DNA of 64,000 bases. Origin: an uncultured Aquimarina sp. (GTDB taxonomy: Bacteria > Bacteroidota > Bacteroidia > Flavobacteriales > Flavobacteriaceae). A program made the translations under genes and the position numbers. The DNA lies in NCBI GenBank assembly GCA_947497175.1, contig CANMFM010000007.1, positions 186,001-250,000 of the forward strand, given 5' to 3'. Shown in pieces: positions 43,562 through 49,040 of this stretch (position 1 is the stretch's first letter; each line of letters starts with the position of its first letter). The notes under the pieces are model-generated. The model saw only the letters and a program-made list of their open reading frames with translations, made no database searches and had not been told where the DNA came from.

Positions 43562-43777
43562 GTATCTCTTTTAATTTATTATAATCATGTTAGGTGAACC
43601 TGTAAAATTAATAACTGTAAAGCAGCATCAAATTAGTAGTATAACATATATTATTGGGAATTCTATAATGAAATCTGCCATTAATTACTGAATTAGCAAA
43701 AGTTTAAGGATAGTATTAATTTAATTTTCTCTAAAAGTAAAAAATTATACATTTGAATTAAAATATAAGGCAAACTA
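43562..43777. other. intergenic region upstream of the thr leader
   Basis: 216 bp between the divergent nnr gene and the leader peptide, AT-rich. It holds the -7 box described separately, and no other feature that I can support. Confidence 0.5.
43748..43755 (+). promoter_or_regulatory. -7 promoter box of the threonine operon
   Basis: TACATTTG matches the Bacteroidota -7 consensus TAnnTTTG. The transcript would start close to 43762, about 16 nt before the leader ATG. A matching -33 box is not clear. Confidence 0.55.
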
Positions 43778-43888
43778 ATGTTTAGTACCGTAATAATCAT
43801 ATTTTTTTCGACCATAGTAGGAACGATTACCGTATCTGGCATTACTTCTATTACACGTACTACAACAATTATTACCCTTAGGGGTTAA
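43778..43888 (+). CDS. thrL: threonine operon leader peptide
   Basis: Not in the ORF track. A 36-codon ORF that begins MFSTVIIIFFSTIVGTITVS and continues with GITSITRTTTIITLRG. It contains 10 Thr and 9 Ile codons, including three consecutive Thr codons near its end. This is the pattern of E. coli thrL, where ribosome stalling at Thr and Ile codons controls the operon. It is 97 bp upstream of thrA on the same strand. The Thr-codon segment GTACTAC (43857-43863) can pair with GTAGTAC (43919-43925), which can pair partly instead with ACTAC (43939-43943), an alternative-structure arrangement. I see no U-rich intrinsic terminator, so the mechanism may be translational or Rho-dependent. Confidence 0.8.
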   Translation: MFSTVIIIFFSTIVGTITVSGITSITRTTTIITLRG

Positions 43889-43985
43889 TTATTTTCATAT
43901 CACCAACAAAACGAGTACGTAGTACATATCAATGAATAACTACCGAAAGCAAGCCTGAACATTAATTTCAATTTAAAAATATATT

Positions 43986-46430
43986 ATGAACGTTCTAAAA
44001 TTTGGAGGTTCTTCTGTTGCAAATTCGGCAACAATAGAAAATGTAATCGATATTATACACGAGCAATCCAAAAAATCACCAATATATGTGGTAGTTTCTG
44101 CCATGGGCGGTGTAACAGACTTGCTCATACAAGCAGGTAAAGAAGCTTCAGAAAATGATGAAAACTATAAAAACACACTTTCAAAAATTGAAGAAACACA
44201 CTTTACTGCTATTAAAAAATTAATTCCGGTTGTTTCCCAAAGTGCTATAATTAGTAAAGTAAAAACAGAACTAAATACGTTAGAATCTTTATGTATTGGG
44301 GTTTTTCTACTCAGTGAATTATCACCAAAAACCGAAGCTGTTATTGCCAGTTTTGGCGAAATGCTATCCTCATATATCATCGTAGAAGCAGCAAAAATTA
44401 AAGGGTTAGACATAAGGCTAAAAGATTCTAGGGATTTAATCATCAAAACAACAAACTCTAAAGCAGCAATTGATTATAAAGAAACAAATCATAGAATTAA
44501 AGACTTCCTAAATAAAAATGAATACAAAGTAAGTCTATTTCCGGGGTTTGTTGCAAGAACTCAGGATGGAGAGCCTACTACATTAGGAAGAGGTGGTTCA
44601 GATTTTACAGCTGCCATTCTCGCTGCAGCAATAGATGCTGAAGAATTACAAATATGGACAGATGTCAGTGGTATGTATACTGCAAACCCAAAACTTGTAA
44701 AACAAGCAAGACCTGTTGATCATATCTCATATCAGGAAGCCATGGAGCTTTCTCATTTTGGAGCTAAAGTTATTTATCCTCCTACTATACAACCGGTGCT
44801 CGAGAAAAACATCCCAATTGTAATCAAAAATACGTTTGAACCTAAAGATCAGGGAACTCGTATTACCAGAGAAGTAAGTAACAAGCAAAATGCGGTAACC
44901 GGGATTACGCATATCGACAACATTGCTATTTTATCTCTTGAAGGTAGTGGAATGGTAGGTATTCCAGGATTTTCAAAACGTTTATTCGAAGCGCTTTTTT
45001 TAGAAAATATAAATGTAATTTTAATTACCCAAGCATCATCAGAGCATTCTATATGTTTAGCGGTTGATATCTCTGAAGCCCAAAGGGCAAAAACTATTTT
45101 AGATGCAACTTTTGAATTTGAAATCTCTAAACACAAAGTAAATCCTGTAAAAATCGAAAATGATGCCGCCATTGTTGCACTTGTTGGCGATAATATGTAT
45201 CATCACCAAGGGCTTAGCGGAAAAATGTTTAGCACCCTTGGTAAAAATAATGTAAACATCAGAGCTATTGCCCAAGGTGCATCAGAAAAGAACATCTCGG
45301 TTGTCATCGAGAAAAAAGATGTAAAAAAAGCATTGAACACCTTACATGAGCGATTCTTTGAAGTAAAAACAAAACAATTGAACTTATTTGTTACTGGAGT
45401 TGGTAATGTGGGAAGCAAATTAATTGGTCAACTAGAGCAACAAAAGAAATACTTAAAAGATAAATTACGTCTCAAAATTAGAGTAATTGGGCTATCAAAT
45501 TCCAGAAAAATGATATTTGATGAAAAGGGTATTGATTTAAATACCTGGGAAGAATCTCTTGTAAAAGGAAAAAAAGCTAATGCACTCGAATTTTTTGAAA
45601 CTGCCAGGCAAATGAATCTTCGTAATTCAATTTTTGTAGACAACACGGCTAATCCGGATATTGCCAAGATCTACAAACATTATTTAGCAGAGAGTATGGC
45701 TGTGGTTACCTGTAATAAGATTGCCTGTGCTGATGCGTATACTAATTATGAAGAGCTGCAGGATTTATCCAGAAAATTTAATGCATCATTTTTGTATGAA
45801 ACCAATGTTGGCGCCGGTCTTCCGATAATTGATACATTAAATAATCTAATTGCATCCGGAGATAATATCCACAAAATACAAGCGGTACTATCTGGGAGCT
45901 TAAATTTTGTGTTCAATACCTATAAAGAAGGTGTAACATTTCATGATATTGTAAAGCAGGCACAGGAAGAAGGATATACAGAGCCAGATCCTAAAATAGA
46001 TCTTAGTGGAGTTGATGTTGCCCGTAAGATTCTAATTTTGGCACGTGAAAGTGGAAAAGTGATGGAGCTTGAAAATATTGAAAAAGAAGCGTTTTTACCA
46101 CAAGAAAGTTTAGACACAGAGACTGTGGATGATTTTTTTGATTCGCTAAAACAGAACGAAAATCATTTTAAAGCTATCTTAGATGAAGCGAACGCGAAGA
46201 ACTGTCGTTTAAAGTATGTTGCGCAATATGAAAATGAAAAGGCAAAAGTTGGTCTACAACACATCCCTGCAGACCACCCGTTTTATAACCTTGAAGGAAG
46301 TGATAATATTGTGCTTTTCTATACAGATCGATATCCAAAACAACCATTAATCGTTAAAGGAGCTGGTGCCGGTGCTGATGTTACCGCTTCAGGAATCTTT
46401 GCAGATATTATACGAATTGGTAAAAAGTAG
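43986..46430 (+). CDS. thrA: bifunctional aspartokinase / homoserine dehydrogenase
   Basis: An 814-aa fusion catalysing the first and third steps of the aspartate-to-threonine pathway. Residues about 1-290 are aspartokinase (NVLKFGGSSVAN, TTLGRGGSDFTAA). Then come ACT-type regulatory domains (about 315-460; ISVVIEKKDVKKAL), where threonine would feed back. Residues about 465-814 are homoserine dehydrogenase, with NAD(P) motif VTGVGNVGSKLI, the CNK motif TCNKIACAD and GVDVARKILILARESG. It heads the thrA-thrB-ridA-thrC operon and follows the Thr/Ile leader peptide. Confidence 0.96.
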   Translation: MNVLKFGGSSVANSATIENVIDIIHEQSKKSPIYVVVSAMGGVTDLLIQAGKEASENDENYKNTLSKIEETHFTAIKKLIPVVSQSAIISKVKTELNTLESLCIGVFLLSELSPKTEAVIASFGEMLSSYIIVEAAKIKGLDIRLKDSRDLIIKTTNSKAAIDYKETNHRIKDFLNKNEYKVSLFPGFVARTQDGEPTTLGRGGSDFTAAILAAAIDAEELQIWTDVSGMYTANPKLVKQARPVDHISYQEAMELSHFGAKVIYPPTIQPVLEKNIPIVIKNTFEPKDQGTRITREVSNKQNAVTGITHIDNIAILSLEGSGMVGIPGFSKRLFEALFLENINVILITQASSEHSICLAVDISEAQRAKTILDATFEFEISKHKVNPVKIENDAAIVALVGDNMYHHQGLSGKMFSTLGKNNVNIRAIAQGASEKNISVVIEKKDVKKALNTLHERFFEVKTKQLNLFVTGVGNVGSKLIGQLEQQKKYLKDKLRLKIRVIGLSNSRKMIFDEKGIDLNTWEESLVKGKKANALEFFETARQMNLRNSIFVDNTANPDIAKIYKHYLAESMAVVTCNKIACADAYTNYEELQDLSRKFNASFLYETNVGAGLPIIDTLNNLIASGDNIHKIQAVLSGSLNFVFNTYKEGVTFHDIVKQAQEEGYTEPDPKIDLSGVDVARKILILARESGKVMELENIEKEAFLPQESLDTETVDDFFDSLKQNENHFKAILDEANAKNCRLKYVAQYENEKAKVGLQHIPADHPFYNLEGSDNIVLFYTDRYPKQPLIVKGAGAGADVTASGIFADIIRIGKK

Positions 46431-46435
46431 CTAAA

Positions 46436-47359
46436 ATGAGAAGTATAAAAATTTTTGCTCCTGCTACGGTAGCTAATCTGTCTTGTGGGTTTGATGTTTT
46501 GGGCTGTTGCTTAGATGCTGTGGGTGATGAAATGAAAATTTCTCTTTCTTCAGGAAATGATGTAAAAATTACCAAAATTGTTGGAGCAGACCTTCCGCTA
46601 GAAACACATAAAAATGTCGCTGGCGTAGCCGTAGAAGCATTATTAGCGTCTTATGGAAAAAAAATAGGTGTTGATATCGAAATTTATAAAAAAATCAAAG
46701 CCGGTAGTGGGATCGGAAGCAGTGCTGCGAGTAGCGCAGGTGCTGTTTGGGCTGTAAATCATCTTTTAGACAATCCCTTTACTGCTCAAGAATTGGTACC
46801 CTTTGCAATGGAAGGTGAAAAATTAGCCAGTGGTAATGCGCACGCAGATAATGTAGCCCCTGCCCTTTTGGGCGGTTTTACACTGGTACGAAGTTATGCA
46901 CCCCTGGATGTTATTAAACTTCATACCCCAAAGGACTTAGTAATGACGGTGATTCATCCACAAATTGAAGTAAAAACTTCAGACTCCAGATCAATAATCA
47001 AGCATAGCGTCTCTTTACAACAAGCTATTCAGCAATGGGGTAATGTAGGAGGATTAGTTACAGGATTATTTACCGAAGATTATGACCTAATTGGTCGTAG
47101 CCTTGAAGATGTAATTATTGAGCCCCTAAGATCAATCTTGATTCCAGAATTTGATACCGTAAAATATAAGGCCTTGGCAAACGGTGCTTTAGGTTGTGGT
47201 ATCTCTGGTTCGGGGCCATCCATTTTTGCACTAAGCAAGGGAGAACAAACTGCACATATGGTAGCAGATACCATAAGAGAAGTGTATTCTAAAACCGGTA
47301 TTGATTATGATATTCATGTATCTAAGATTAATAGCAAGGGAGTTAAGATAATAAATTGA
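46436..47359 (+). CDS. thrB: homoserine kinase
   Basis: A 307-aa GHMP kinase that phosphorylates homoserine. The N-terminus is IKIFAPATVANLSCGFDVLG, the ATP-binding motif KAGSGIGSSAASSAGAVWA is the GHMP Pro-x3-Gly-Leu-x-Ser-Ser equivalent, and GCGISGSGPSIFAL is the third GHMP motif. The length is normal. It follows thrA at 5 bp and precedes the ridA gene at 3 bp. Confidence 0.96.
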   Translation: MRSIKIFAPATVANLSCGFDVLGCCLDAVGDEMKISLSSGNDVKITKIVGADLPLETHKNVAGVAVEALLASYGKKIGVDIEIYKKIKAGSGIGSSAASSAGAVWAVNHLLDNPFTAQELVPFAMEGEKLASGNAHADNVAPALLGGFTLVRSYAPLDVIKLHTPKDLVMTVIHPQIEVKTSDSRSIIKHSVSLQQAIQQWGNVGGLVTGLFTEDYDLIGRSLEDVIIEPLRSILIPEFDTVKYKALANGALGCGISGSGPSIFALSKGEQTAHMVADTIREVYSKTGIDYDIHVSKINSKGVKIIN

Positions 47360-47362
47360 AAG

Positions 47363-47725
47363 ATGAAAGAAATAAAAAAAATATCTAGTGGCGCCCCTTG
47401 GGAAGATATTGTAGGATATTCTCGGGCTATAAAAATCGGCACTACTATAGAAATCGCCGGTACTACAGCAAAAGGGAAAGATGAATACGAACAAACAAAA
47501 GCGATTATTAGAATTGCAGAAAAAGCATTAAAAGAACTCGGGGCTGATTTAAGTACTGTGGTTAGAACCAGAATGTACTGCACCAACATTTCAAACTGGG
47601 AAAAAATCGGTAAAGCACATGGCGAATTTTTTCGCGAAATAAAACCAGTAGCCACTATGGTCGAAGTCACTAAATTAATTTCACCAGAAATTTTAGTTGA
47701 AATAGAATTTTCGGCAATACTCTAA
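47363..47725 (+). CDS. RidA family enamine/imine deaminase
   Basis: A 120-aa YjgF/YER057c/UK114-type protein, with GAPWEDIVGYSRAIKIG, TIEIAGTTA and the conserved Arg in VVRTRMYCTNI; PVATMVEVTKL and EILVEIEFSAIL end it. RidA hydrolyses reactive enamines formed by PLP enzymes such as threonine dehydratase, so sitting inside the threonine operon between thrB and thrC fits a protective role. Spacing to thrB is 3 bp and to thrC 22 bp. Confidence 0.9.
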   Translation: MKEIKKISSGAPWEDIVGYSRAIKIGTTIEIAGTTAKGKDEYEQTKAIIRIAEKALKELGADLSTVVRTRMYCTNISNWEKIGKAHGEFFREIKPVATMVEVTKLISPEILVEIEFSAIL

Positions 47726-47747: not shown

Positions 47748-49040
47748 ATGCAATATTACAGCTTAAATAATAGAACAATAAAAGCATCTTTTTCTGATGC
47801 AGTAATCAAAGGGATAGCTCCGGACAAAGGGTTATATTTTCCAGAGCACATAGCACCATTACCGCAATCATTCTTTGATACTATCGAAACTCTAGATAAC
47901 ACAGAGATTGCATATCAGGCTATCCAGCAATTTGTAGGAGACCAGATCCCTGAAGCCGAATTAAAAGATATTCTTAATGATGTTTTAAGTTTTGATTTTC
48001 CTGTGGTAGAGATCGAAGATAATATTGGCACCCTTGAGTTGTTTCATGGACCCACAATGGCATTTAAAGATGTTGGCGCTCGTTTTATGGCCCGCTGCCT
48101 GGGATATTTCAACAAAAATAATGACAATCAAGTAACGGTATTGGTTGCGACATCCGGAGATACCGGGGGTGCTGTAGCCAATGGCTTTTTAGGTGTTAAA
48201 GGTGTTGATGTGGTTATTCTTTATCCCTCTGGTAAAGTGAGTAACATACAGGAAAAACAACTTACAACCCTGGGACAAAATATAGTTGCATTAGAAATTG
48301 ATGGGGTGTTTGATGATTGCCAAGATATGGTGAAAACTGCTTTTTTGGATAGCGATATTACTGAATACAGACAATTAACATCAGCCAATTCTATCAATGT
48401 CGCCAGGTGGCTTCCACAATTATTTTACTTTTTGTTTGCTTACAAGCAGGTGAAAAATAAAAGAAAAGATATTGTTTTTTCTGTACCTAGTGGTAATTTC
48501 GGGAACATTTGTGCAGGTATTGTAGCTCACAAATTGGGATTGCCAGTAAAACAGTTTGTTGCATCTACAAATATTAATGATACTGTAGTTCGATATTTAG
48601 AAACTTCAGAATACACTCCAAAACCTTCAAAAGCTACTATCTCTAACGCCATGGACGTTGGTAATCCGAGTAATTTTATTCGGATACAACAACTTTTCGA
48701 AAATGATTTTAAACAATTAAAGCACTCTTTTTCTGCCTTTAGTTTTGATGATATAGAAACTAAAGAAGCTATGAAAAGAATCTTTGATAACACAGGGTAT
48801 ATAACCGATCCACATGGAGCAGTAGGATATTTAGGGTTAAAAAAACAAGGCCTAAATGGAAATGATTATGGTATTTTTTTAGAAACTGCACATCCTGTAA
48901 AGTTTTTAGATGTTGTAGAAGAAACCTTAAACACAACTATTGAAATACCTTCACGAATAGAAAAAGTAATGAATAAAGAAAAGAAAAGCTATTCAATTAA
49001 TACCTATAATGAATTAAAGCAGTTCTTGTTAAAAAAATAA
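47748..49040 (+). CDS. thrC: threonine synthase
   Basis: A 430-aa PLP enzyme making threonine from phosphohomoserine. The PLP-lysine motif is FHGPTMAFKDVGARFM, the phosphate-binding block is VLVATSGDTGGAVANGFL, and SANSINVARWLPQLFYF is typical of the bacterial form. It closes the thr operon. The last codons form part of a 14-bp hairpin (49014-49052). Confidence 0.96.
   Translation: MQYYSLNNRTIKASFSDAVIKGIAPDKGLYFPEHIAPLPQSFFDTIETLDNTEIAYQAIQQFVGDQIPEAELKDILNDVLSFDFPVVEIEDNIGTLELFHGPTMAFKDVGARFMARCLGYFNKNNDNQVTVLVATSGDTGGAVANGFLGVKGVDVVILYPSGKVSNIQEKQLTTLGQNIVALEIDGVFDDCQDMVKTAFLDSDITEYRQLTSANSINVARWLPQLFYFLFAYKQVKNKRKDIVFSVPSGNFGNICAGIVAHKLGLPVKQFVASTNINDTVVRYLETSEYTPKPSKATISNAMDVGNPSNFIRIQQLFENDFKQLKHSFSAFSFDDIETKEAMKRIFDNTGYITDPHGAVGYLGLKKQGLNGNDYGIFLETAHPVKFLDVVEETLNTTIEIPSRIEKVMNKEKKSYSINTYNELKQFLLKK

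Follow-up and report, generated by a model that had tools for sequence, protein, structure and literature searches.

A Thr/Ile-rich leader peptide and a two-hairpin RNA element upstream of thrA in Aquimarina and other Flavobacteriaceae

Textbook leader-peptide attenuation is defined by a terminator and an antiterminator. How might a leader that is dense in control codons be read out where neither element is evident? The thr operon of an uncultured Aquimarina sp. raises this question. It lies within a 64,000-nt window (the whole stretch of DNA that was analysed), in which a short ORF precedes a fused thrA gene in the following arrangement.

43748-43755, + strand: promoter -7 box TACATTTG, of the Bacteroidetes TAnnTTTG type, kept in 30 Aquimarina species
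43778-43888, + strand: thr leader ORF of 36 codons with 10 Thr and 9 Ile, from ORF reading and conservation
43859-43876, + strand: terminal Thr/Ile codon cluster ACT ACA ACA ATT ATT ACC
43986-46430, + strand: thrA, bifunctional (fused) aspartokinase/homoserine dehydrogenase, the regulated gene
46436-47359, + strand: thrB, homoserine kinase (GHMP kinase)
47363-47725, + strand: Rid/L-PSP family gene within the operon, between thrB and thrC
47748-49040, + strand: thrC, threonine synthase

The ORF translates as MFSTVIIIFFSTIVGTITVSGITSITRTTTIITLRG up to its stop codon, and a gap of 97 nt separates it from the thrA start at 43986. The original prediction had proposed a 36-codon leader rich in Thr and Ile codons that sits just behind a -7 box; its codon counts are exact, and the conserved box is found where listed above. 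The Thr content of this ORF is unique among the 944 small ORFs of the window, and simulated sequence yields no equal among 5784 ORFs 30-45 aa long. The ORF is genuine rather than a chance reading frame, and it is the thr leader peptide. The same genome has a second fused aspartokinase/homoserine dehydrogenase gene (L230/L002, G000:C11:23068-25473; 38% identity to ThrA), and no Thr leader was found before it.

The 30 aligned Aquimarina species keep the promoter, the ORF start, the Thr/Ile-rich end and a block, ATTATTACCCTTAGGGGTTA, in which the only synonymous-position change is a loop T to C in two species. Because this block hardly varies even where a change would be synonymous, it appears to be constrained as RNA as well as peptide. 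Twenty more Aquimarina loci agree broadly with this pattern, and the layout recurs in 29 other Flavobacteriaceae genera and in most of 80 further loci; of about 100 added loci in all, most have the Thr/Ile-rich leader. Its shared order in the family is promoter (with a -7 box of TACTTTTG or TACATTTG in the other genera), Thr/Ile-rich ORF, a first hairpin (hp1), a linker with TATATATnnTTCCG, a second hairpin (hp2), an AU-rich stretch and thrA. Judged from these alignments, a predicted Thr leader precedes thrA in all of Aquimarina and in the majority of the other Flavobacteriaceae genera sampled; some thrA loci among the Flavobacteriaceae and other Bacteroidia surveyed have no recognisable one. 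Lack of a Thr-rich ORF in relatives had been named in advance as evidence against the leader, and the comparison instead finds the ORF conserved, as expected of a leader of the attenuation kind. The C-terminal peptides differ (TLRG, TPLG, TLWGC, TRLGC, TPFGV) because the hairpin sequence is translated differently from leader to leader, which suggests that conservation acts on the RNA.

The RNA elements between the Thr codons and thrA are placed as follows.

43874-43885, + strand: hp1, ACCC-TTAG-GGGT, spanning the final codons up to the stop codon
43889-43918, + strand: single-stranded linker between hp1 and hp2
43919-43943, + strand: hp2, GTAGT..ACTAC, five pairs, from covariation and position

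Hairpin hp1 is the most conserved RNA feature of the leader and was absent from the original prediction. It is short in this species (-4.2 kcal/mol) and can be extended by flanking A/U to 43871-43889; an extended form with a bulge was also considered and found only partial support. Across the Flavobacteriaceae, hp1 has a GC stem of 4-9 bp and a loop of 3-4 nt, and it covers the last codons and the stop. The Thr cluster leads directly into it in the 136 family loci that were compared, with Thr codons increasing toward the hairpin and peaking in the six codons before it. Hairpin hp1 opens with the last Thr codon of the cluster (ACC), a position that is Thr in 99% of leaders.

The CCC/GGG core of hp1 is invariant within the family, and covariation comes from the outer pairs only (62 cells with two-sided changes vs 48.5 +/- 5.1 shuffled); since hp1 was the anchor of the locus set, the core pairing is built into that set and is inflated. 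Independent support comes from lineages that were found through the thrA protein only and that have other stems. One is a Chitinophagaceae genome (L067) with ACTCCGC-GTTA-GCGGAGT, and the others are four loci of another family (L208, L212, L270, L272) with a flipped stem, ACGGG-GTGA/GTAA-CCCGT, that places the stop codon in the loop. As RNA (ACGGG-GURA-CCCGU), the loop of these flipped hairpins is GNRA-like. One Bacteroidia genome of another family also has an hp1-type Thr leader directly before thrB (L264, ~1501-1564).

With a covariance model of the hp1 region, 38 of 61 Flavobacteriaceae genomes give a single match each, and 37 of the 38 matches lie upstream of thrA, the one exception being a weak match; many of these genomes were in the training set of the model, and the informative part is that there are no second copies. 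A match of the model in another family lies before thrB rather than thrA. An hp1-like pattern has five other matches elsewhere in the genome, 0 of them before amino-acid genes. It is most improbable that the ORF arose by chance or is a leader with no regulatory role: conservation, Thr placement, Thr content and the covariance-model matches are all contrary to this reading.

Hairpin hp2 is weak in this species, and most relatives have a longer one. Whole-spacer folding energy is nothing unusual, and for the whole leader of this species the predicted fold is no more stable than that of shuffled sequence (z 0.07); hp2 becomes evident only through its position and covariation. In Aquimarina, 96% of hp2 cells are paired, whereas slid versions of the helix all reach at most 48%, and there are 25 double changes vs 7.4 +/- 2.3 in shuffled data. 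Its stems are highly variable among loci (TTGTAATTT/AAATTACAA, GTTTGAAT/ATTCAAAC, CCGTTT/AAACGG and TATGTTGT/ACAACATA), and the best spacer hairpin falls 36-48 nt from the ATG in 55-60% of loci vs 18% shuffled. The linker before it contains CATATCACC (43896-43904), which corresponds to the motif TATATATnnTTCCG of the family. A further candidate was a pairing between the hp1 3' arm, once its 5' partner is occupied, and TTCC in the linker; it is weak, and it would need to flip in the flipped-hp1 lineages, which it seemingly does not.

The spacing of the two hairpins bears on what they could do. In 38 confident loci outside Aquimarina hp1 and hp2 lie 43.3 +/- 3.5 nt apart, a figure somewhat limited by the search window for a confident hp2, and their distance is uncorrelated with spacer length (r -0.03), whereas the hp2-ATG distance tracks spacer length (r 0.90). 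Even with spacers of 153-187 nt, hp2 keeps its place 44-50 nt from hp1 (L092, L121, L124, L140, L286, L289); in three long-spacer exceptions (L118, L225, L276) the best hairpin is elsewhere. A distance that stays fixed while the distance to thrA doubles argues for a self-contained module rather than a device that locks the start codon of thrA. This evidence weighs on translational attenuation, in which leader stalling would alter ribosome access to the thrA start. The leader mRNA does continue into thrA, and Flavobacteria initiate translation on unstructured AU-rich sites, where structure near the start could matter. However, hp2 is tied to hp1 and not to the thrA start, the spacer is sometimes longer than 150 nt, and the region around the thrA start is largely unpaired (mean 0.55), so that we consider control of this type unlikely. 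Control of mRNA processing or stability, with hp1 and/or hp2 serving as nuclease or protective elements that depend on the leader ribosome, would resemble the Arg-sensing orf34 leader of Salmonella speF (Rho plus RNase G; PMC6386406) and would suit two autonomous hairpins at a fixed distance, a conserved single-stranded linker and the lack of a terminator. A known nuclease motif was not identified in it, and we rate this possibility marginally lower still.

The original prediction also proposed that GTACTAC (43857), GTAGTAC (43919) and ACTAC (43939) pair alternatively. One part of this proposal survives: GTAGT:ACTAC is hp2 itself, conserved and covarying. The long-range GTACTAC:GTAGTAC pairing is unsupported. 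Complementarity between leader and spacer is not above synonymous recoding in 50 Aquimarina loci (z 0.00 +/- 0.13) or in 83 other loci (z -0.11 +/- 0.12), and when leaders are swapped between species, the leader Thr region is no better complemented by the spacer of its own locus. A mutually exclusive antiterminator pairing is likewise not above the synonymous-recoding controls. Candidate pairings of the leader with the hp2 5' arm, such as ATTACAA/TTGTAAT (L043) and ATCACAA/TTGTGAT (L084), failed both the recoding and the swap controls.

No U-tract terminator had been noticed in the original prediction, and a scan of 43650-44150 for intrinsic terminators also found none. Nearly all other hp1 loci are likewise without one: a U-tract terminator is scored in only 6 of 136, where three (L091, L138, L165) are hp1 itself with a T-rich tail and the rest look spurious. 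The suggestion that the mechanism may differ from that of E. coli is thus borne out, with neither a terminator nor an antiterminator found, and the mechanism of this thr leader probably does differ. The same genome has leaders before hisG, pheA and ilvD that are rich in the matching amino acids and are followed by strong hairpins and long U-tracts. These are a His-rich leader of hisG (L234; MKNIAIHHHHSYIFAQAW) and a Phe-rich leader of pheA (L254; MNNLFTWNRFYFFFFYFKSKIGVAM), each with a U-tract terminator, and two tandem classical attenuators about 300 nt before ilvD (L185 ~930-1240, G000:C2; also L178), whose leaders MKRNNTNIINVINIQVIISP and MEILKNIIDIVFISIVILNSQ are each followed by a U-tract terminator.

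Among Bacteroidia Thr leaders, hp1 occurs without a terminator at ~21 loci vs a terminator without hp1 at ~8, a tally in which L284 is ambiguous and the terminator scored at L231 precedes its leader. By this survey of sequences, the predicted Thr leaders fall into two almost exclusive designs, hp1 or terminator. The terminator type includes L206, L214, L224, L277-L281 and Empedobacter brevis (L068), and a few Flavobacteriaceae Thr leaders also have a classical terminator (L146, L148). At one locus (L210), about 40 nt past hp1 and at the hp2 position, a short hairpin AGGC-TTTT-GCCT is directly followed by TTTTTTATC; it may represent a form midway between the two designs.

These observations leave little room for classical attenuation of the E. 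coli type at this locus, with an antiterminator and a U-tract terminator that exclude each other and the three strings as alternating partners. The leader layout fits such a scheme, the strings can pair in this one species, and, as described, classical terminators do follow Thr leaders in other Bacteroidia and a few Flavobacteriaceae. With the terminator missing here and at nearly all hp1 loci, and with the long-range pairing not exceeding its recoding controls, we regard the scheme as highly unlikely.

The best explanation, and one we hold to be slightly better than an even bet, is a Thr/Ile-sensing leader-peptide regulator of the thr operon whose read-out is not an intrinsic terminator. That the leader senses Thr/Ile is very probable from its codon content and placement. 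In this scheme the 36-codon leader would be translated, and a shortage of charged tRNA-Thr (or tRNA-Ile) would hold a ribosome whose A site lies in the Thr cluster, just before or in hp1. The waiting ribosome would block the hairpin, and RNA polymerase would continue into thrA-thrB-thrC. When Thr is ample, the ribosome would reach the stop codon and depart, hp1 would form, and transcription would end prematurely within the hp1-linker-hp2 module, with hairpin-stabilised pausing and/or a factor such as Rho as the most likely cause. We infer the stalling, the direction of control, the action on transcription and the factor as the most likely course. Ribosome footprints are of known size, and because Thr is at 99% just before the CCC core and highest over the six preceding codons, a waiting ribosome would be expected to cover the hp1 5' arm. 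If hp1 forms only when no ribosome occupies the Thr cluster, then its presence signals a sufficient supply and ought to promote the OFF state. Regulation of transcription rather than of thrA translation is fairly likely, and termination of a pause or Rho type is a tentative proposal, rather less probable than not. The spacer has more C than G (17% vs 7% in 83 loci; the upstream regions of other genes in the window have a C/G ratio of ~1.05), which is weakly consistent with a role for Rho.

If this reading is correct, Bacteroidia thr operons may use a separate class of leader attenuator, a proposal that we place just short of even. In it a cluster of control codons would lead up to a stop-codon hairpin, another hairpin would follow at a fixed 44-50 nt, and stalling would be read without a terminator or antiterminator, in genomes that use classical attenuators for other amino acids. 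A widespread control-codon leader that has neither element, together with the textbook form elsewhere in the same genomes, offers a clean natural comparison of stalling read-outs, and the question is directly testable in Flavobacteria, whose regulation is poorly known. A further gain is a conserved small gene and an RNA element that are missing from Rfam, Pfam and NCBIfam: their leader models give no match to the Aquimarina thr leader, and a relaxed Rfam threshold gave chance matches only.

Our literature search found no paper describing a thr leader in Bacteroidetes or a terminator-less thr module. Lopatovskaya et al. (2010; cited in PMC4833913) reportedly may list Bacteroidetes attenuators. 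Strong clues of leader-peptide attenuation, unmatched in Rfam, have been described before amino-acid operons of Flavobacterium psychrophilum (PMC9723704); in its main text, pheA and hisG elements are named, and thrA and a terminator-less design are not. Leader-peptide attenuation in Flavobacteria has thus been proposed in general terms, and the terminator-less thr module would be a new variant.

Among experimentally known systems, the E. coli thrABC leader thrL is likewise a short Thr/Ile-rich ORF directly before a bifunctional thrA and has an early leader hairpin; a NusA-stimulated pause with a predicted hairpin has been reported there at thrL1 (PMC9291695). Unlike thrL, the Aquimarina leader has no U-tract terminator, no supported antiterminator, and a second hairpin at a fixed distance. 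We do not place it in the E. coli thr attenuator family, because the terminator and antiterminator that define this family were both looked for and neither was supported. The orf34 leader of Salmonella speF, in which control codons sense Arg and Rho and RNase G act by experiment, shares a control-codon ORF without a classical terminator, but its structure is different and no homology is claimed (PMC6386406). Translational attenuators of the erm type sequester a start codon in a leader-controlled hairpin, whereas the thrA start is not so sequestered. The hisG, pheA and ilvD attenuators of the same genome share the control-codon ORF after a promoter, but they have the strong hairpin and long U-tract that thr lacks. 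Other Bacteroidia Thr leaders (family f39 and others, Empedobacter brevis) also place a Thr/Ile ORF before thrA; they have an intrinsic terminator and no hp1, and the Aquimarina type is the reverse.
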